This document shows positions 28,329-35,500 of a stretch of DNA of 64,000 bases, one piece after another (position 1 is the first letter of the stretch; every line of letters begins with the position of its first letter). The stretch covers positions 16,529 through 80,528 of the forward strand of contig NCGX01000012.1 in assembly GCA_002256995.1 (NCBI GenBank), in the 5' to 3' direction. This stretch comes from Hydrogenophilales bacterium 16-64-40. GTDB taxonomy: Bacteria; Pseudomonadota; Gammaproteobacteria; Burkholderiales; Thiobacillaceae. The notes beneath the pieces are model-generated. The model made no database searches, was not told the origin of the DNA, and worked only from the letters and a program-made list of their open reading frames with translations. The translations under genes were made by a program, and so were the position numbers.

Positions 28329-28404
28329 TGTGTTCCTTTCATGGGAAAGTGTTGTTTGGCGTTGTCGCACGTCGGTGGCTGCACGACAAGCCTGGCCTAT
28401 CCGC

Positions 28405-28433
28405 AAAAAAACCCACCAGTTTGACCTGGTGGG
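28405..28433 (-). terminator. Terminator of the porin transcript
   Basis: On the minus strand, CCCACCAG / CTGGTGGG (28433-28412) is followed by T7 (28411-28405). Confidence 0.9.
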
Positions 28434-28467
28434 CATGAGGAGACCCCTACAAAAACTGTTTTTCTGC

Positions 28468-29868
28468 CTAGAAAATCGCCGTCAGCTGCAAGCCGACCTT
28501 GTTACCCACCCCTTTTAGATTGTAGTTAGGCGTGTTGGGTTCTGGGGCGGTGCATGGGGCCTTCCCGGAATCGCACTCGAAGTCCCGGATCTCATAGTTG
28601 AGGGTGATGCGGGTCTTGGGGTTGAAGTGGTACTGCACCCCCAGGGTCCACTTGTCGAACCTGAACTGGTTCACGCGATCCTCAAGACTGGTATAAGTAT
28701 CGAAGCGGGCATCCAGTTCGAACTTGGTGTTGGGGATGTACCAGCCGCCTTCCGCATACCAGCCGCTGGCCTTGGCGTCGGCACCATTGCCATGAGCTGT
28801 GTTGTTGGTGAAATAAAAATTGGGTTTATCCGGGCCGACGAAGATCATGCCATCCGCTGCGATGTATTCAGCCGTCACGCGGAAGGGCTTTCTCATGTAT
28901 TTCACTCCGACACCCGAGCGATCCCGGTCATAGGAGACGAGGTTGGGAGTACTGTCGTCCGTCTTGTCCAGCAGGCGAGATCCTTTCTGACCCCAGGCGA
29001 AAAACTTCAGGCCTTCGGCTTTCGGGCCTTTGCCGCCGAATTTCTTCTCGGCAGACAGGTAGAGGTACTTGTCATATTCGCCATCGCTGTTGCTGAACTC
29101 GATGCCGTTGCCGTTGCCGATCATCGCCGCATAGGAAACCTCCCAGTCATTGCCGACATCAAACGCGTCGAACACCTGAACCCCTACGTCGCGGAAGGCA
29201 CCAATCGGACTGTCGAATTGATTAAGGTTGGCACCGCCCTGAAGCTGGGCTTCCGTAAAGGGCCCTACGTTGCCTGTGGTTGGATTGGAGCCAACTGCTT
29301 CGGTCCAGGTTTTGTTCGGGAACCGCTCCAGCAGAAGCGCGTTGGTTGCTTCTGTGAAGTTGATGTAGTCGAAGACGTGGATTGCCTGCAGGGCTTCTTC
29401 GGCACCGGGCGTCTTGAACAGGCCTGCGCGAACGCGCGCGCCTGGAATGTGATTCAGGGTCACGCTGGCGTCGGTTAATTTGGCAAAGGCCCCGCCGCCG
29501 TGGGTAATGCCGTTGTTGCCCATCTCGAGCAGCACGAAATAGTTGATCCGGCTGTCGATCGGGAAGCCGGTGCCGCGAACGCCGATGCGGGCGCGGTTGA
29601 TGTTGAAACCGTCCTGAGCGTCGAGTTCAGGCCCAAGCAGTTTGGGTGGCACGAAACCTCCACCGGCACCACCGGCATTGGCGTCGCTGAAGTCCTTCTC
29701 GTACTTGGCCTGGATAAACCCCCACACATTGGCGCGTGCAGCGGCGCCCGGATCTTCGGTGCCCTGCAGCATCAGCCAGTTGGCCGCCTGGGCCGTACCC
29801 GCTGCGGCGAAAGCCAGGGTGCAGGCTGCGCCGATCAGTGCGCGCTTGAATTGTTTGTTCTCTCCCAA
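28468..29868 (-). CDS. OprP/OprO-like porin
   Basis: 466-aa outer-membrane protein with a signal peptide (1-28, AQA^A) and a pattern of alternating hydrophobic strands ending with KVGLQLTAIF, whose terminal phenylalanine is the outer-membrane assembly signal. RARIGVRGTGFPIDSRINYF resembles phosphate-selective porins (OprP/OprO family). The substrate cannot be deduced; anion uptake is likely. The start is TTG at 29868, chosen because GAGGAG is well spaced before it. It follows two DsrE-like genes on the same strand after tandem hairpins. Confidence 0.85.
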   Translation of the reverse strand: MGENKQFKRALIGAACTLAFAAAGTAQAANWLMLQGTEDPGAAARANVWGFIQAKYEKDFSDANAGGAGGGFVPPKLLGPELDAQDGFNINRARIGVRGTGFPIDSRINYFVLLEMGNNGITHGGGAFAKLTDASVTLNHIPGARVRAGLFKTPGAEEALQAIHVFDYINFTEATNALLLERFPNKTWTEAVGSNPTTGNVGPFTEAQLQGGANLNQFDSPIGAFRDVGVQVFDAFDVGNDWEVSYAAMIGNGNGIEFSNSDGEYDKYLYLSAEKKFGGKGPKAEGLKFFAWGQKGSRLLDKTDDSTPNLVSYDRDRSGVGVKYMRKPFRVTAEYIAADGMIFVGPDKPNFYFTNNTAHGNGADAKASGWYAEGGWYIPNTKFELDARFDTYTSLEDRVNQFRFDKWTLGVQYHFNPKTRITLNYEIRDFECDSGKAPCTAPEPNTPNYNLKGVGNKVGLQLTAIF

Positions 29869-29907
29869 TTTCTTGCTCCTCGATTAAGGTTTAAAAGGTA
29901 AATCAGA

Positions 29908-29953
29908 CAGGGCTTGCGCCCTGCAAATAGCCCGGGTGGTTCCCCACCCCGGG
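29908..29953 (-). terminator. Tandem hairpins between DsrE-like gene and porin
   Basis: CAGGGC-TTGC-GCCCTG (29908-29923) and CCCGGGTGG / CCACCCCGGG with one bulge (29931-29953) lie in the 87-bp gap. No T-tract follows, so they may act as partial terminators or RNA processing sites that set porin against DsrE levels. Confidence 0.5.
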
Positions 29954-29955
29954 TG

Positions 29956-30402
29956 TCAGGGCTTGATGTAGATGTAGTCCTGATGAACCAGTTCGCCGAT
30001 GCGCACGACGCCGGCGGGCACCACGCCGGCAGACGGGTTCATCTTTGGCGCTTCGCCCATCAGTTTCGTCATGCCCTTGATGGTATTGCCGCAGGCGGAG
30101 AATTTGACGCCGCTCTGGGCCAGCGAATCGAGGTGTTTGGAATTGGCGTTGTCGGCGAACATCAGGCGCAGGCCGGGACCATAGGCAACCACCTCGACTT
30201 CCACCTCGCCGGGCGGGTAGGCCTTCAGCAGGTTGCTGGCATTGTTCAGGATGAGTTCCTGTTTGGACGGGTCCATGTCGCTGATTTGCAGGACGTATTT
30301 GTATTCAGGACCGTCCTGGCCTGCCGACAGCGCAGGGGGGGCCGCCGAGACCAGCAGAAGCGACGAGGTGACTAGGAAAAGGGAACGGAAATGCTTAAAC
30401 AT
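29956..30402 (-). CDS. Secreted DsrE-like protein
   Basis: 148-aa protein with a signal peptide (about 1-27) and a single DsrE-like domain: KYVLQISDMDPSKQELILNN, VEVEVVAYGPGLRLMF, GVKFSACGNTIKGM with C104, then PAGVVRIGELVHQDYIYIKP. The layout matches the gene just upstream (30537-30956) and the C-terminal part of the anti-sigma factor at 31657-32388. Family relatives bind sulfane sulfur on this cysteine. ATG at 30402 has TTGGAG before it; a longer frame to 30441 is unlikely. Confidence 0.82.
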   Translation of the reverse strand: MFKHFRSLFLVTSSLLLVSAAPPALSAGQDGPEYKYVLQISDMDPSKQELILNNASNLLKAYPPGEVEVEVVAYGPGLRLMFADNANSKHLDSLAQSGVKFSACGNTIKGMTKLMGEAPKMNPSAGVVPAGVVRIGELVHQDYIYIKP

Positions 30403-30491
30403 GGCTTGACTCCAAGTGATGAGTGATGCGAGCGGGGGCAAACTGGCGGCGAACCGTGCCAGGATTCAGTTTGACTTTCCCCGTTGATAGA

Positions 30492-30510
30492 CCGCCCCGT
30501 TGCGGGGCGG
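30492..30510 (-). terminator. GC hairpin between the two DsrE-like genes
   Basis: CCGCCCCG / CGGGGCGG around a 3-base loop, 27 bases after the stop of the upstream DsrE-like gene and about 90 bases before the next start. No proper T-run; likely attenuation or mRNA protection. Confidence 0.5.
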
Positions 30511-30536
30511 CATGGCGTGTATTGTTGTTCTGTCGA

Positions 30537-30956
30537 TCAGGGCTTCAGGTAGACGTAGCCTTCCTGGGCCTGCAGCTTGCCGATTTCGGCCACGCCGGAC
30601 GCCACAATGGTGGCTTCCATGTTCACTGCACTGGCGTCCAGCTTGCGGGATTTCAAGGTGTTGTTGCAGACGCGGAAATCGACGCCTTTTGCTTTCAGGG
30701 CGGACACCACGGGGGCATACTCGCCCTTGTCGTCCTTGGCGTCGTTGAGCAGGAAGTCGATGCCCTTGCCGTGGGTCACCACGACGATCTTGGCGTCCGG
30801 CGCAGCATTAAGATGGTTGTTCACGTTGTTCATGGCAACGCGGGCGTTGGCGGAATCGTTGACGTGGTACACCACTTTTTCTTCTGCGGCGCTGGCGGCC
30901 ATGGGGGCGGTTGCCAGAAACAGGGCTGCGAGGAACGGAGTGAGAATGCGGGTCAT
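30537..30956 (-). CDS. Secreted DsrE-like protein
   Basis: 139-aa protein with signal peptide (1-23, ASA^A) and one DsrE-like domain: KVVYHVNDSANARVAMNNVN, AKIVVVTHGKGIDFLL, GVDFRVCNNTLKSR with C97, and ASGVAEIGKLQAQEGYVYLK. It is the first gene of the minus-strand unit that continues into a second DsrE-like gene and the porin. CAGGAG lies nine bases before the ATG. A GGAATAA-15-CGTCTT promoter-like element lies about 65 bases upstream and mirrors that of the divergent sigma factor gene. Confidence 0.82.
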   Translation of the reverse strand: MTRILTPFLAALFLATAPMAASAAEEKVVYHVNDSANARVAMNNVNNHLNAAPDAKIVVVTHGKGIDFLLNDAKDDKGEYAPVVSALKAKGVDFRVCNNTLKSRKLDASAVNMEATIVASGVAEIGKLQAQEGYVYLKP

Positions 30957-31021
30957 GGTGGGTCTCCTGATTGACGATTAACGTTGTATAAACTGGCCTA
31001 ATGAACAATAAGCCTATTGAT

Positions 31022-31049
31022 AAGACGCATTACATGGGACGCTTATTCC
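31022..31049 (-). promoter_or_regulatory. ECF-type promoter for the DsrE-like genes
   Basis: On the minus strand GGAATAA (31049-31043) is followed after 15 bases by CGTCTT (31027-31022). GGAA-type -35 and CGTC-type -10 elements with this spacing are the common layout of ECF sigma promoters. It is the mirror image of the element at 31072-31099. Confidence 0.65.
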
Positions 31050-31071
31050 ATTCCCGCAGGTAGATTTTTAT

Positions 31072-31099
31072 GGAATAAATGGACCACTTCCCTCGTCTT
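31072..31099 (+). promoter_or_regulatory. ECF-type promoter for the sigma factor operon
   Basis: GGAATAA (31072-31078), 15 bases, CGTCTT (31094-31099). The predicted start point is at or within a few bases of the sigma factor ATG at 31106, and no Shine-Dalgarno is present, so the transcript could be leaderless. The -35 boxes of the two divergent promoters form a perfect 9-bp inverted repeat (TTATTCCAT / ATGGAATAA). Confidence 0.65.
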
Positions 31100-31105
31100 C
31101 CTTAA

Positions 31106-31660
31106 ATGACCATGATCAGCCGCTTACTGCTTGGCCCGTTTCGTCCCGGCATCGAGGCCCAGCGCCCGCTGCTCTACCGCATCGCCTATGCCTGGTGCCA
31201 CGATCCGGCGCTGGCTGACGATCTGGTGCAGGAAACCCTGTCCAAGGCCTGGGCGCGGCGTGCCCAGCTGCGCGACGAGGCGGTGCTGAAGGGCTGGATG
31301 GTGTCGATCCTGAATCACTGCTGGCTCGATTACCTGCGCAGCCGGCGCGACTTCGACGATGTTGACGACTGGCAGGACGAGCTTGTGTCCCATGCCGATT
31401 CGCCCGAGGCATGCTGCAACCGCGAAGAGGTGGTCGCCTGCGTGCGTGCAGCGGTGGCGCGTCTGCCACTGGGGCAGCGCCAGGTGCTGACGCTGGTCGA
31501 TCTGGAGGAATTCGGCTATGCCGAGGTGGCCGGCATTCTGGATATCCCGGTGGGCACGGTGATGAGCCGGCTGTCGCGCGCGCGCGCGAGCCTGAAAAGT
31601 TTGCTGGATCCGGCGACGCAGCAGCCTGCGGTCCGAACCCTGCTGAGGAGCGTGAAATGA
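31106..31660 (+). CDS. ECF-family RNA polymerase sigma factor
   Basis: 184-aa group 4 sigma factor. Region 2 includes LYRIAYAWCHDPALADDLVQ and ETLSKAWARR; region 4 includes LPLGQRQVLTLVDLEEFGYA and EVAGILDIPVGTVMSRLSRA, the helix-turn-helix that reads the -35 box. It directs RNA polymerase to the GGAAT/CGTC elements proposed here. ATG at 31106 and the in-frame ATG at 31112 both lack a ribosome site. Its stop overlaps the anti-sigma gene (ATGA), the usual sigma/anti-sigma coupling. Confidence 0.93.
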   Translation: MTMISRLLLGPFRPGIEAQRPLLYRIAYAWCHDPALADDLVQETLSKAWARRAQLRDEAVLKGWMVSILNHCWLDYLRSRRDFDDVDDWQDELVSHADSPEACCNREEVVACVRAAVARLPLGQRQVLTLVDLEEFGYAEVAGILDIPVGTVMSRLSRARASLKSLLDPATQQPAVRTLLRSVK

Positions 31661-32388
31661 ATCCCCTCGTTTCGGACGAAACCCTGCATGCCTTTGTCGA
31701 TGGCGAGCTCGACGTGGCCGAGAGCGAAACGCTCATCGCCCGGATACGCGACGACCAGGAACTGGCGCAGCGTGTCTGCGCGCTGCGCACCCTGCAGAGC
31801 ATGGTGCGGCTGGCCTATGCCGAACCGCCGGTCGTCGCCGGCCGGGAACTGCGCCCGGCCCCCCGGCGCCAGTTCATGCAGCGCTGCGCTTACGGTTGTC
31901 TTGTCCTGGTTGCGGGACTGGGCGGCGGCTGGACCTTGCGAGGCCTGGAACCGCAAGCGGTGGCCGCCGTTCCGGTGGCGGTCCAGGGCGGCTTTCAGAC
32001 GGTCAGCCTGACGCAGGCGGCCGATCCCAATCGGGTCATGCTGCACCTCGACAGCGCCGCGCCCGACAAGATGCTGGCGGCGCTGGATCAGGCCGAGCGG
32101 CTGCTGGACGCGGCGGAGCGGGAAGGACGGGCGATGCAGCTCGAAATTGTCGCCAACAGCTATGGAATCAATTTGATGCGCGCCGGGGTCAGTCCATATG
32201 CGGCACGCATGGCACGCATGACCCAGCGTCACGCCAACCTGCAGTGGGTGGCATGCAGCCAGACCATTGCCAGATTCTCGGGCGAGGGGCAAAAAGTGGA
32301 GTTGTTGCCGATCGCGCGGGCCGCCCCGACCGCCATCGGCGAGATCATCACCCGGCTCCAGCAAGGCTGGACCTATGTCCGGGTTTGA
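31657..32388 (+). CDS. Membrane anti-sigma factor with a periplasmic DsrE-like domain
   Basis: 243-aa protein. Residues 1-60 look like a cytoplasmic anti-sigma domain (DETLHAFVDGELDVAESETL then EELAQRV-type helix; H11 kept but no CxxC zinc pair). A membrane helix lies at about 74-92. The rest (about 125-243) matches the neighbouring DsrE-like proteins: VMLHLDSAAPDKMLAALDQA, QLEIVANSYGINLMRAG, NLQWVACSQTIARF with C200, and IGEIITRLQQGWTYVRV. I infer a sensor in which a DsrE-like domain outside the membrane controls release of the sigma factor. The fusion call rests on motif pattern, not an alignment score. Confidence 0.75.
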   Translation: MNPLVSDETLHAFVDGELDVAESETLIARIRDDQELAQRVCALRTLQSMVRLAYAEPPVVAGRELRPAPRRQFMQRCAYGCLVLVAGLGGGWTLRGLEPQAVAAVPVAVQGGFQTVSLTQAADPNRVMLHLDSAAPDKMLAALDQAERLLDAAEREGRAMQLEIVANSYGINLMRAGVSPYAARMARMTQRHANLQWVACSQTIARFSGEGQKVELLPIARAAPTAIGEIITRLQQGWTYVRV

Positions 32389-34180
32389 ACGCGCAACAGT
32401 ATTTACCTCCCTGCTGCTGACTTTACTGTTGTTGCCCGTTGCGGTTGCGGCTGCGCCAGTCAATCAGCTCGTCAACCATCCCTCACCCTATCTGGCGCTG
32501 CACGGCAGCGATCCGGTCGCCTGGCAGGAATGGAATGCCGAGACGGTCGCCCGCGCCAAACGCGAAAACAAGCTGTTGTTCGTGTCGGTGGGCTACTTCG
32601 CCTGCCACTGGTGTCACGTCATGCAGCGTGAAAGCTACAAGAACCCACAGATCGCCGCGCTGCTTAACCGCGACTACATTCCGGTCAAGGTCGACCGCGA
32701 ACTCAATAGCGGTCTCGACGACGCCCTGCAGACGTTCTCGGCCCAGCTGAGCGGCGTCTCGGGCTGGCCGCTGAATGCCTTTGTCACGCCCGAAGGCTAT
32801 CCGGTCTTTGTTATCCTCTATGCGCCCCCGGACGACTTTCGCAAGCAGTTGAATCACCTCACCCAACGCTGGGTTGCCGACCGTGCCGGGATCCGGGCCA
32901 TGGCCAGGCAGGTCGCACCGCCACCCGCCGGGCAACCCGTTAGCGCGCCGTTGACGGCCGAACGCAGCGCACGTGCCTGGCAGCAGTTTCTGGCCGGCGT
33001 GTGGCAGGAGGCGGACACCCTGCACGGCGGCTTGGGCCAGGTCAACAAATTCCCCATGGCGCCGCAACTGCATGCCCTGCTGGAGCGGCAGTCGCGGCAG
33101 CCCGATGCCAGGCTGGCCGAGTTTCTGCGCATGACGTTCGACCAGATGGCCGCACGCGGCATGCGTGACCATGTCGGCGGCGGGTTTTTCCGCTACACCA
33201 CGGACCCTGAGTGGGATACGCCGCATTTCGAGAAAATGCTTTATGACAACGCGCATCTGGCCCCACTTTATTTGCGTGCGGCGACGGTGCTGCGCCAGCC
33301 GCGCTATCGCGAGGTCGCGCGCAGCACGCTCGATTTCATGCGCAACGAGTTGCTGGATGCGAGCGGCGGTTTCTACTCCAGCACCTCGGCAGTCGATGAC
33401 AAGGGCCGCGAAGGAGCGACCTATCTGTGGGAGCCGGATGAACTGAAACGTCGCCTGTCGCCCGAGGCCTATGCTGCAGCACGACGGGTGTGGCGCCTGG
33501 ACCAGGCGCGCGAATTCGAAGCCGGCTATCTGCCTGCGGAATACCGCACGCCGACAGCGGATGAGCGCCGGCTGCTGGCCGACGCCATGCGCATCCTGCG
33601 GCCATTGCGGCTGGCGCGCAGCCTGCCCAAGGACGACAAGCTGAACGCCGGCCTCAATGGTCTGGCGCTGTCGGCGTTCAGCCAGGCCAGCCAGCTCGAT
33701 CCGGCCTACCGCCGGCAGGCCGATCGCCTGCAGCTTTTTCTGCTGACGCGGCTGACCCGGGACGGGCGCCTGGTGAAGGCGATGGCCGGTGGGCAGGTGC
33801 TGCCCGATGCCGAACTGGAGGACTACGCCTACGTCGTTCAGGGCTTGCTCGACCATGCCGAAGCGACCGGCAACGGGCAATCGCGTACCCGTGCACAGCA
33901 GCTGGCGCACATCGCGTGGAAATTATTCTGGAGCGAGAAGGGCTGGAAACACGAAACGCGGCCCTTGCTGGCCATGCTGCAGGCCGAGCCGGCGCTGGCC
34001 GACGGCGCCCTGTATTCGCCGTCGGAGGTGCTGGTGCTGGCCAGCCTGCGTTTGCCCGATCCGGCCCTGCGACAGCTGGCGCGAACCGCTGCCGGCTGGC
34101 GCGTGCCTGCAATGGAGCGGGATGCGTATTCCTATCCCACCCGCGTTCGGGTGCTGGCGCAGGCGCCGCCAGACGCATGA
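32375..34180 (+). CDS. Secreted DUF255 (thioredoxin-fold, YyaL/SSP411-like) protein
   Basis: 601-aa protein with a signal peptide (about 1-27). The N-terminal thioredoxin-like domain has ACHWCHVM with C77 and C80, the DUF255 hallmark, preceded by DPVAWQEWN. The rest is an (alpha/alpha)6-barrel-like region with FEKMLYDNAHLAPLYLRA and GGFYSSTSAVDDKGREGATY. Most family members are cytoplasmic and longer (about 670-700 aa); export to the periplasm is notable. It overlaps the anti-sigma gene by 14 bases, so it is probably part of the sigma operon and could act on thiols or disulfides there. Confidence 0.82.
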   Translation: MSGFERATVFTSLLLTLLLLPVAVAAAPVNQLVNHPSPYLALHGSDPVAWQEWNAETVARAKRENKLLFVSVGYFACHWCHVMQRESYKNPQIAALLNRDYIPVKVDRELNSGLDDALQTFSAQLSGVSGWPLNAFVTPEGYPVFVILYAPPDDFRKQLNHLTQRWVADRAGIRAMARQVAPPPAGQPVSAPLTAERSARAWQQFLAGVWQEADTLHGGLGQVNKFPMAPQLHALLERQSRQPDARLAEFLRMTFDQMAARGMRDHVGGGFFRYTTDPEWDTPHFEKMLYDNAHLAPLYLRAATVLRQPRYREVARSTLDFMRNELLDASGGFYSSTSAVDDKGREGATYLWEPDELKRRLSPEAYAAARRVWRLDQAREFEAGYLPAEYRTPTADERRLLADAMRILRPLRLARSLPKDDKLNAGLNGLALSAFSQASQLDPAYRRQADRLQLFLLTRLTRDGRLVKAMAGGQVLPDAELEDYAYVVQGLLDHAEATGNGQSRTRAQQLAHIAWKLFWSEKGWKHETRPLLAMLQAEPALADGALYSPSEVLVLASLRLPDPALRQLARTAAGWRVPAMERDAYSYPTRVRVLAQAPPDA

Positions 34181-34306: not shown

Positions 34307-35500
34307 TCAGTTCAGCTCGGGTTCCAGCGCCGGCTCAAGCGTGCGCTGCATGGGGCGCCGTCCGACCTGGACTTTCAGATCCAGCGATTGCTCCTTGCGC
34401 AACACCGTGAGCTGCGCGACCTTGCCCGGCTTCAGTGCGGCGATCAGGTTCAGCAGTGTGGCCGAATTCGACACCTTGTTGCCGTTGACCGCCAGTAGGA
34501 TGTCGCCGGGGCGGACGCCGCCGGCGTCGGCCGGGCCGCTTTTCAGCACGCCTGCAATCAGCGCGCCTTCGGCGCTTTTCAGATTGAAGGATTCGGCCAG
34601 TTCGGGCGTCATGTCTTGCACCTCGACGCCGACCCAGCCGCGCGTCACGCTGCCGGACTGGATGATCTGCTCCATCACCTGGCGTGCGATGCTGACCGGA
34701 ATGGCAAAGCCGATGCCTTGCGAGCCGCCGGTGCGCGAATAGATCGCGCTGTTGACCCCGACCAGATTGCCTGCCGCATCGACCAGCGGCCCACCCGAGT
34801 TGCCCGGGTTGATGGCAGCGTCGGTCTGGATGAAATTCTCGAAGGTGTTGATGCCGAGACTAGAGCGGCCGAGCGCGCTGACGATACCCGCGGTGACGGT
34901 CTGGCCGACGCCGAACGGGTTGCCCACCGCCAGCACCCAGTCGCCGACCTGAATGCTGTCTATCTGGGCGAAGGTGATCGCAGGCAAGTCGTTGGCATCG
35001 ATTTTCAGGACGGCCAGATCGGTTTCAGGATCGGCGCCGACCACGCGCGCAGGCAGTGTCTGGCCGTTTGCCAGCGCCACCTGGATTTCGTCGGCCGCCA
35101 CGACCACATGATGATTGGTGAGGATGTAGCCGTTTGCGCTGACGATGACGCCCGAACCGAGGTTGGACACTTCGCGCGGACGCTCATCCAGCCGGTCGCC
35201 GAAGAAATAGCGGAAGATCGGGTCCTGCAGAGCGGGATGGGCCGGGGTGCGCACCTTTTGCTGGGTGAAGACGTTGACCACCGACGGGATCACTTTTTGC
35301 GCGGCCGGGGCGAAGGATTCGCTCGCGGTGCCCGCGCCTGCCGACGCAGGTTTTGCCTGCTGGATGGTGAGGCTTTGCTGTTGTGGCTGCCAGCGCACGA
35401 GATCCGGCTTGAACAGGACGATGATGAACAGCACGCCGAGTGCCACCGTGGTGGATTGGGCGAAAAGCAACCAGAGTTTGCGCATAGTGATTAAATTCAT
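34307..35500 (-). CDS. DegS/DegQ-like trypsin-type serine protease with one PDZ domain
   Basis: 397-aa membrane-anchored HtrA protease. A helix at about 11-30 anchors it (no cleavage site evident). Catalytic triad: H131 (LTNHHVVV), D161 (PETDLAVLKI), S235 (NPGNSGGPL). A single PDZ domain follows (RGWVGVEVQDMTPELAESF to GVRPGDILLAVNG), as in DegS. It may start regulated proteolysis of an anti-sigma factor or clear misfolded envelope proteins. ATG at 35500 or the MRKLW Met five codons later. Divergent from petA. Confidence 0.92.
   Translation of the reverse strand: MNLITMRKLWLLFAQSTTVALGVLFIIVLFKPDLVRWQPQQQSLTIQQAKPASAGAGTASESFAPAAQKVIPSVVNVFTQQKVRTPAHPALQDPIFRYFFGDRLDERPREVSNLGSGVIVSANGYILTNHHVVVAADEIQVALANGQTLPARVVGADPETDLAVLKIDANDLPAITFAQIDSIQVGDWVLAVGNPFGVGQTVTAGIVSALGRSSLGINTFENFIQTDAAINPGNSGGPLVDAAGNLVGVNSAIYSRTGGSQGIGFAIPVSIARQVMEQIIQSGSVTRGWVGVEVQDMTPELAESFNLKSAEGALIAGVLKSGPADAGGVRPGDILLAVNGNKVSNSATLLNLIAALKPGKVAQLTVLRKEQSLDLKVQVGRRPMQRTLEPALEPELN

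Follow-up and report, generated by a model that had tools for sequence, protein, structure and literature searches.

The genome of Hydrogenophilales bacterium 16-64-40, a member of the Thiobacillaceae (order Burkholderiales, class Gammaproteobacteria, phylum Pseudomonadota in the GTDB lineage), raises the question of whether a sulfur-trafficking fold can serve an anti-sigma factor as its sensor. The gene in question lies at 31657-32388 in a 64,000-nt stretch of contig NCGX01000012.1 (positions 16,529 to 80,528 of the forward strand, assembly GCA_002256995.1). This whole stretch is called the window here, and coordinates refer to it unless a locus is named. The gene follows one for an extracytoplasmic function (ECF) sigma factor, and its product is most likely a membrane-spanning class I anti-sigma factor with a periplasmic DsrE domain. 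It is likely that this domain senses sulfur status, most probably through residue C200, and that release of the sigma factor leads to transcription from promoters of the form GGAATAA-N15-CGTCTT. Comparison of sequences and predicted structures supports the fold, the architecture, the invariance of C200, the gene order, the promoter motif, the genes behind that motif and the co-occurrence with soxB. The gene pair and the parts of the predicted anti-sigma protein are as follows.

31106..31660, + strand: ECF sigma factor, 184 residues, regions 2 and 4 (Pfam)
31657..32388, + strand: putative anti-sigma factor with periplasmic DsrE domain, 243 residues plus stop
31657..31821, + strand: N-terminal cytoplasmic anti-sigma-like helix bundle, residues 1-55 (AlphaFold2 helices; weak profile matches)
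31864..31935, + strand: single membrane helix, residues 70-93 (AlphaFold2 helix, hydrophobic sequence)
31993..32382, + strand: periplasmic DsrE-fold domain, residues about 113-242 (AlphaFold2, Foldseek, hidden Markov model)
32254..32256, + strand: codon of the invariant C200

The sigma and anti-sigma genes overlap by 4 nt. The sigma protein matches Pfam Sigma70_r2 (4e-14) and Sigma70_r4_2 (3e-16), and TIGR02937 also exceeds its cut-off; regions 2 and 4 are its only sigma-70 regions, which marks it as an ECF sigma factor. An ECF sigma gene lies directly 5' of the anti-sigma gene in 171 of 172 loci, the gene order of class I. The lone exception is L242, where the sequence starts 116 bases before the anti-sigma gene. 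An AlphaFold2 model of the 243-residue protein, based on an alignment of 68 sequences, has a mean predicted local distance difference test score (pLDDT) of 84.4. It contains helices at residues 7-14, 20-32 and 34-53, the membrane helix at 70-93, a poorly modelled linker after the membrane helix, and an alpha/beta domain at about 113-242 that is confident from about residue 121 (block-mean pLDDT of at least 94). The order of helix bundle, one membrane helix and DsrE domain had been proposed in a preliminary description of this DNA made from its letters alone. AlphaFold2, Foldseek and profile searches bear it out, with weak matches for the bundle.

The resemblance of the periplasmic part to DsrE is well beyond chance, and the domain belongs to the fold of PF02635. 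A profile of 68 relatives matched MTH1491 (1l1s) in the PDB over residues 126-242 with an E value of 1.6e-15, and ST0148 with 3.6e-6. The top Foldseek match was also 1l1s (E 1.8e-8; target template modelling (TM) score 0.89), followed by ST0148 (TM 0.86), an engineered DsrE-like protein, DsrE (2hy5_A, 0.60) and YchN (0.65). When profiles were compared with each other, 25 stand-alone DsrE proteins (P0002 together with 24 taken from other loci) gave a probability of 99.4% and an E value of 1e-21. Searched singly against the genomes of the family, the anti-sigma protein matched DsrE-like open reading frames over about residues 118-242, with E values down to 1.8e-7. The window protein alone hit no DsrE family in Pfam or NCBIfam, and only 12 of the 68 relatives hit Pfam DsrE when searched singly. 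The domain is visible only with a profile because single sequences mostly miss Pfam DsrE. The MTH1491 profile match, Foldseek and the profile-profile comparison speak against convergence or low complexity as the source of the C-terminal likeness. The DsrE fold suspected from a few shared motifs thus stands: a profile search or predicted structure pointing away from it had been named in advance as refuting grounds, and neither did so.

C200 is invariant in all 91 relatives, and in 89 of them it is the only cysteine past residue 100, which argues against an intramolecular disulfide there. It aligns with the cysteines of MTH1491 and ST0148, at what is predicted to be the active-site position. In profile alignments it also falls on C97 and C104 of the two secreted DsrE proteins encoded nearby. 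The short motifs on which this correspondence had first been proposed are all present (ACSQT at C200, VCNNT at C97 and ACGNT at C104, with the C-terminal ends GWTYVRV, GYVYLKP and DYIYIKP). Lack of conservation of C200 among homologues had been named beforehand as grounds for giving up the sensor proposal, and the count of 91 out of 91 removes those grounds. It is reasonable to suppose that C200 is the residue through which the domain would sense sulfur directly.

The assignment of the N-terminal part as an anti-sigma domain is less certain. The best PDB profile matches of residues 1-60 are the N-terminal domains of MucA and RseA, with E values of 0.02-0.026, and RseA_N is found in the window protein with an E value of 0.0082, under the Pfam cut-off. 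Among the N-terminal segments of 24 members, Pfam zf-HC2 was found in 12 and RseA_N in 3. NCBIfam holds no model for a DsrE-domain anti-sigma family; among 68 members, one each matched a putative anti-sigmaE model (8.4e-7), a generic anti-sigma model and MmpA. The motif Hx3Cx2C is the signature of a zinc-binding subgroup of anti-sigma factors (PMC7406223). It is absent from the window protein, in which C41 is the sole N-terminal cysteine; the position of C41 is a cysteine in 84 of 91 relatives. D15, L18, C41 and Y54 in the N-terminal part are conserved among relatives. Together with the sigma gene neighbour in 171 of 172 loci, their conservation suggests that the bundle is kept by selection with the sigma factor, and the bundle presumably binds that sigma factor.

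In the intergenic region between the sigma gene and a divergent dsrE operon, two copies of one motif occur, the predicted promoters that the sigma factor would read.

31072..31099, + strand: predicted ECF promoter of the sigma/anti-sigma operon, GGAATAA-N15-CGTCTT
31022..31049, - strand: predicted ECF promoter of the divergent dsrE operon, GGAATAA-N15-CGTCTT

The two sites flank this intergenic region, and they are the only exact copies in the 3.1 Mb genome. The pair was first spotted by eye at the two window sites and then tested, so that the exactness of these sites is no independent test; the relatives are the test. Upstream regions, like the loci of the gene-order count, were taken from L001, L032-L121 and L199-L277 (setting aside L002-L031 and L122-L198), many of them from close relatives. 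There were 171 regions, of which 165 are distinct because some occur under two locus ids. The pattern GGAATA-N15-17-CGTC was found in both directions in 99 of the 165 and in one direction in 42. Dinucleotide shuffles (20 rounds) gave about 0.1 motif per direction and none in both. The spacing in relatives was 16 at 213 sites, 15 at 23 and another value at 5. Presumably this sigma factor reads GGAATAA-N15-CGTCTT. A gap of 6 nt separates the end of the predicted -10 element from the first ATG of the sigma gene (31072-31106), and in most Thiobacillus loci the -35 element lies 33-36 nt before the aligned sigma start. Given elements so close to the start, the sigma mRNA may be leaderless or translation may start at the next ATG, 31112.

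In relatives the motif reaches beyond the sigma locus. The pattern GGAATAA-N15-CGTCTW was present in 62 of 117 family genomes, at 95 sites as against 5 for the backwards control. Of the 93 genomes in which the factor was matched, 60 have the pattern, as do 2 of the other 24. Twenty-two of the family sites lie off the sigma locus. Their first genes encode secreted DsrE proteins (8), DUF255 thioredoxins (3), SoxB-like phosphoesterases (3), tetratricopeptide repeat (TPR) proteins (3), a porin, a second ECF sigma factor and a flavin adenine dinucleotide (FAD) oxidoreductase, and 2 are unassigned. The SoxB-like phosphoesterases score 127-178 bits to TIGR04486 (cut-off 550) and are therefore not SoxB itself. 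Among class and order genomes with the factor, the motif was present in 37 of 61, at 55 sites as against 6 for the control. Here 21 sites lie off the locus: 6 precede DsrE genes, 3 genuine soxB (849-871 bits), 2 soxX and 1 a soxYZAX cluster whose four proteins all exceed NCBIfam cut-offs. The remaining first genes encode YeiH-like transporters (PF03601; 2), a TPR protein, a DUF302 protein and a sigma-like protein, and the last 4 of the 21 sites either lack a convincing gene or are probably chance matches. Among the first genes of the 43 off-locus sites, the only genes considered, none was recognised as coding for a sulfite dehydrogenase.

These assignments have defined limits. A first gene is the longest open reading frame starting within 400-450 bases, with other frames checked for L342, L347 and L351. 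Whether the 95 family sites and the 55 class and order sites lie on or off the locus was judged by comparing coordinates by eye. Two family off-locus sites (L333 and L334) belong to genomes in which the factor was not matched. The DUF255 assignment of L320 was made from its letters, with no NCBIfam hit. L317 was called DsrE by a custom profile and not by Pfam, L328 is under the Pfam DsrE cut-off, and 4 of the 6 class and order DsrE calls come only from the custom profile. The DsrE and SoxB-like sites of a looser pattern in L322 are not counted in the 22.

Several recurrent arrangements were observed among these sites. The SoxB-like phosphoesterases form a secreted family behind the motif (L323 2354-4243, L327 2036-4285, L335 662-2632 and L322 6646-8001), and a secreted TPR-repeat protein recurs behind it in distant genomes (L325 557-1375, L329 3467-4282, L332 585-1400 and L359 575-1429). 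The DUF255 genes of L318-L320 lie away from the sigma locus, yet behind the same promoter motif. L322 1780-8001 (G050:C156) holds a second pair of divergent promoters, directed at another ECF sigma gene and at a gene for an FAD-dependent oxidoreductase; a further divergent pair, DsrE and SoxB-like, stands beside it.

The spread of the factor over family, order and class speaks against its being an oddity of one genome. It was matched in 93 of 117 genomes of the family, a few of these matches being partial or to the DsrE part only; the 24 genomes without a match were identified partly by elimination. At E 1e-20 it was matched in 52 of 399 genomes and 19 of 158 genera of the order, and at E 1e-15 in 75 of 369 genomes and 59 of 272 genera of the class. 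Full-length factors occur in 66 class genomes, several of which hold two or three copies. The sigma/anti-sigma pairing first described from the window is therefore a widespread arrangement. A sample of the phylum gave matches in 20 of 398 genomes; outside the class, no match starts before profile position 60.

Presence of the factor goes with that of soxB. A soxB gene was found in 65 of the 66 class genomes with a full-length factor (the exception is G558), as against 149 of the 369 overall; Fisher's test gives p 3e-29 if genomes are treated as independent. Nine of the 75 class matches, partial or to the DsrE part only, were excluded from this comparison, and the 8 of these with soxB were excluded from the controls. 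In the 76 soxB-bearing class genomes without any match to the factor, the motif was found in 5, at 5 sites as against 8 for the backwards control; one of these five sites precedes a DsrE gene. The class-only comparison is 23 of 45 genomes with the factor against 5 of 76 soxB genomes without it. The 45, together with 16 order genomes, make up the 61 mentioned above and were chosen from 66 and 43, respectively; soxB status covers the 45, of which G558 lacks soxB. Since the motif is common with the factor and rare in soxB genomes without it, the pattern follows the factor and not soxB. The sulfur role of the factor, at first suggested only by the look of its periplasmic domain, gains support from the motif in relatives, the genes behind it and the co-occurrence with soxB.

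How beta and gamma sulfur oxidisers regulate the oxidation of thiosulfate is little known. The factor is a candidate regulator of this process in 65 of the 149 soxB-bearing genomes. Its promoter code is exactly defined, its predicted target genes can be named, and a single cysteine offers itself for mutation. Direct tests are possible for the ligand, the residue, the promoter and the targets alike. In the proposed mechanism, the anti-sigma factor would span the membrane and hold the product of the ECF sigma gene that precedes its own. The signal would be the arrival in the periplasm of a sulfur compound in a reduced or intermediate state (thiosulfate, tetrathionate, polysulfide or sulfite) or of a partner loaded with sulfur. 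The DsrE domain would change state, most likely by chemistry on the single C200, and the sigma factor would be released upon this change. The ligand is presumably among those named, and the change would presumably be passed across the membrane. The sigma factor would then transcribe two operons here. One is its own, with the sigma and anti-sigma genes and that of a DUF255 protein, which is thioredoxin-like and secreted; the other is the divergent one for two secreted DsrE proteins and a porin. In related genomes it may also transcribe other DsrE, DUF255 and sox genes. If this is true, a sulfur-trafficking fold has been reused as an extracytoplasmic sensor, and the finding suggests a role for the secreted DsrE and DUF255 proteins.

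Parts of this design are known from other systems. The class I factors RseA and MucA bind sigma through an N-terminal bundle of helices, which is followed by a single membrane helix and a C-terminal periplasmic domain. The window protein is predicted to share this layout, and the two factors provide the best PDB matches of its residues 1-60, but its periplasmic part differs from theirs in having a DsrE fold with one invariant cysteine. Conversely, MTH1491, ST0148, DsrE of DsrEFH and YchN share the fold, and the first two also the aligned cysteine, whereas the matched chains (101-130 residues) have neither an anti-sigma part nor a membrane helix. DsrE3A of Metallosphaera cuprina has DsrE-family cysteines that take thiosulfate from the sulfur oxyanion tetrathionate to form Cys-S-thiosulfonate (PMC4175335). 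Unlike the window protein, DsrE3A is cytoplasmic, has two conserved cysteines, passes thiosulfate to TusA and is not a regulator.

The closest regulatory parallel is ECF26, with the pairs of RpoE4 in Sinorhizobium meliloti and SigE in Starkeya novella (PMC3511301, PMC6527743). Sulfite-responsive ECF26 promoters with -35 GGAAT and -10 CGTC were mapped upstream of sorT, rpoE4 and sorA, and the core of the window motif is identical to this pair of elements (PMC6527743). The ECF26 pairs would have in common with the present pair a co-transcribed sigma and anti-sigma gene, the promoter core, control of the oxidation of sulfur compounds and a sulfur compound as inducer. Their targets are sulfite-oxidising enzymes, whereas the targets predicted here, in lineages of beta and gamma type, are genes for DsrE and DUF255 proteins and sox genes. 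The main text of PMC6527743 nowhere mentions "DsrE", and in PMC3511301 these letters turn up solely at the beginning of the word DsRed. Since a sulfite-responsive sigma/anti-sigma pair is known in alphaproteobacteria, the regulatory theme is not new; the sensor domain seems new. Searches of titles and abstract openings in the open-access literature found neither a DsrE-domain anti-sigma factor nor ECF control of sox genes. Arcobacter butzleri has seven ECF pairs, reported to have targets that are unknown (PMC2147049).

Several observations weigh against the proposed reading. The motif is found in neither direction in 24 of the 165 upstream regions, and 33 of 161 loci have no stand-alone DsrE gene in the examined stretch. 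Genomes are not independent, as the Fisher tests take them to be. The helix bundle is weakly recognised, with PDB matches at E 0.02, RseA_N below threshold and NCBIfam hits in single members. With one mismatch allowed, the motif occurs at 3 sites in the own genome, a number that the backwards control also reaches; two looser sites there, of the form GGAATA-N16-CGTC, have no convincing gene behind them. In this genome a second soxB copy (G000:C20, L336 5170-6873), whose profile match lacks the first 24 positions, follows a DsrE gene (L336 3110-3520) at a distance of 1.65 kb. No motif site with fewer than three mismatches was found in that stretch, and the other soxB (C24) is not among the motif sites found. 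With no good motif site found at either soxB, sox control is not predicted for this species, and no regulon is predicted in its genome beyond the local promoter pair. PMC6527743 states that the GGAAT/CGTC consensus was not seen before the sulfite-oxidising-enzyme genes linked to its betaproteobacterial ECF group, and PMC4175335 describes DsrE3A as cytoplasmic and as unreactive with sulfite, polysulfide or thiosulfate. Experimental work on the proteins considered here was not found.

The nature of the signal allows several explanations. A more specific form of the preferred reading, held tentatively, makes the pair a dedicated sulfur-oxidation switch: the anti-sigma factor would have taken in the periplasmic sulfur-carrier fold of its own target genes and would read whether C200 bears a persulfide or thiosulfonate. 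Loading and unloading of C200 would fall to the secreted DsrE proteins under its control, and in part of the Gammaproteobacteria the switch would drive the sox genes for thiosulfate oxidation. It is rather doubtful that the DsrE domain instead docks the secreted DsrE proteins and reads the sulfur on their C97 and C104, so that a product of the target operon would close a feedback loop. RseB and CpxP are feedback-type partners in other envelope systems. The sensor domain and the main product of the regulon are indeed homologous with aligned cysteines, complexes are known in the DsrE family (DsrEFH, structure 2hy5), and among the 161 loci with enough flank the stand-alone DsrE gene is divergent in 107 and elsewhere in the examined stretch in 21. 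The other 33 would have no such partner encoded there. By analogy with ECF26, the signal may be sulfite, with DsrE as a lineage-specific sensor part and the promoter code kept. The shared core GGAAT/CGTC and the sulfite inducer of those systems speak for this (PMC6527743, PMC3511301), but it appears unlikely given that the first genes of the 43 off-locus sites include no recognised sulfite dehydrogenase and that DsrE3A is reported not to react with sulfite (PMC4175335).

Two further explanations dispense with sulfur sensing. The protein could be a general envelope-stress factor of the RseA type, released by DegS-like cleavage, with the DsrE domain as a mere lid, structural or regulatory, and the sulfur link arising through abundant periplasmic thiol proteins. 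Its N-terminal part is closest to MucA and RseA, and a trypsin-PDZ protease gene lies 126 nt behind the operon, with a homologue near at least 42 of 164 loci. That protease gene adjoins Rieske and cytochrome b genes, however, and its placing may be unrelated to the anti-sigma operon. The sox, DsrE and DUF255 genes behind the motif and the presence of soxB in 65 of 66 genomes point to sulfur, and the invariance of C200 would go unexplained; general envelope stress is thus quite improbable. The domain might, finally, be a membrane-anchored enzyme or sulfur carrier with a vestigial N-terminal bundle, since an invariant single cysteine is also found in sulfur-transfer members of the family (PMC4175335). 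Conserved D15, L18, C41 and Y54 and the adjoining sigma gene in 171 of 172 loci make this hardly credible. Sensing of sulfur status by the DsrE domain remains the likely explanation.

The genes around the pair are consistent with two operons that face away from each other and a convergent protease gene.

30537..30956, - strand: secreted DsrE protein 1, 139 residues, C97 (Pfam DsrE 4.1e-12)
29956..30402, - strand: secreted DsrE protein 2, 148 residues, C104 (Pfam DsrE 2.4e-4; aligns with the anti-sigma DsrE domain)
28468..29868, - strand: outer-membrane porin, Porin_O_P (Pfam 1.7e-11)
32375..34180, + strand: secreted DUF255 thioredoxin-like protein (Pfam Thioredox_DsbH 1.7e-47)
34307-35500, convergent, 126 nt behind the operon: membrane-anchored trypsin-PDZ protease, DegS/AlgW type

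Secreted DsrE protein 2 is narrowly under the Pfam DsrE cut-off (21.7 as against 22.7 bits). The DUF255 gene starts at ATG 32375 and overlaps the anti-sigma gene by 14 nt. A DUF255 homologue lies downstream on the same strand in at least 36 of 164 eligible loci, and a porin homologue upstream on the opposite strand in at least 61 of 148. These counts and that of the protease are lower bounds, eligible loci being those with 1200 bases downstream or 3000 upstream. The protease is a possible site-1 protease for the anti-sigma factor. The porin is probably the last gene of the dsrE operon: a terminator-like site at 28434-28411 (- strand), past the porin, is the only one found on that strand within 28400-31200. 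Hairpins on the - strand at 30403-30536, between the two dsrE genes, and at 29869-29955, between the second dsrE gene and the porin gene, have z scores of -1.56 and -2.65 and no T run. They perhaps serve mRNA processing or partial termination.

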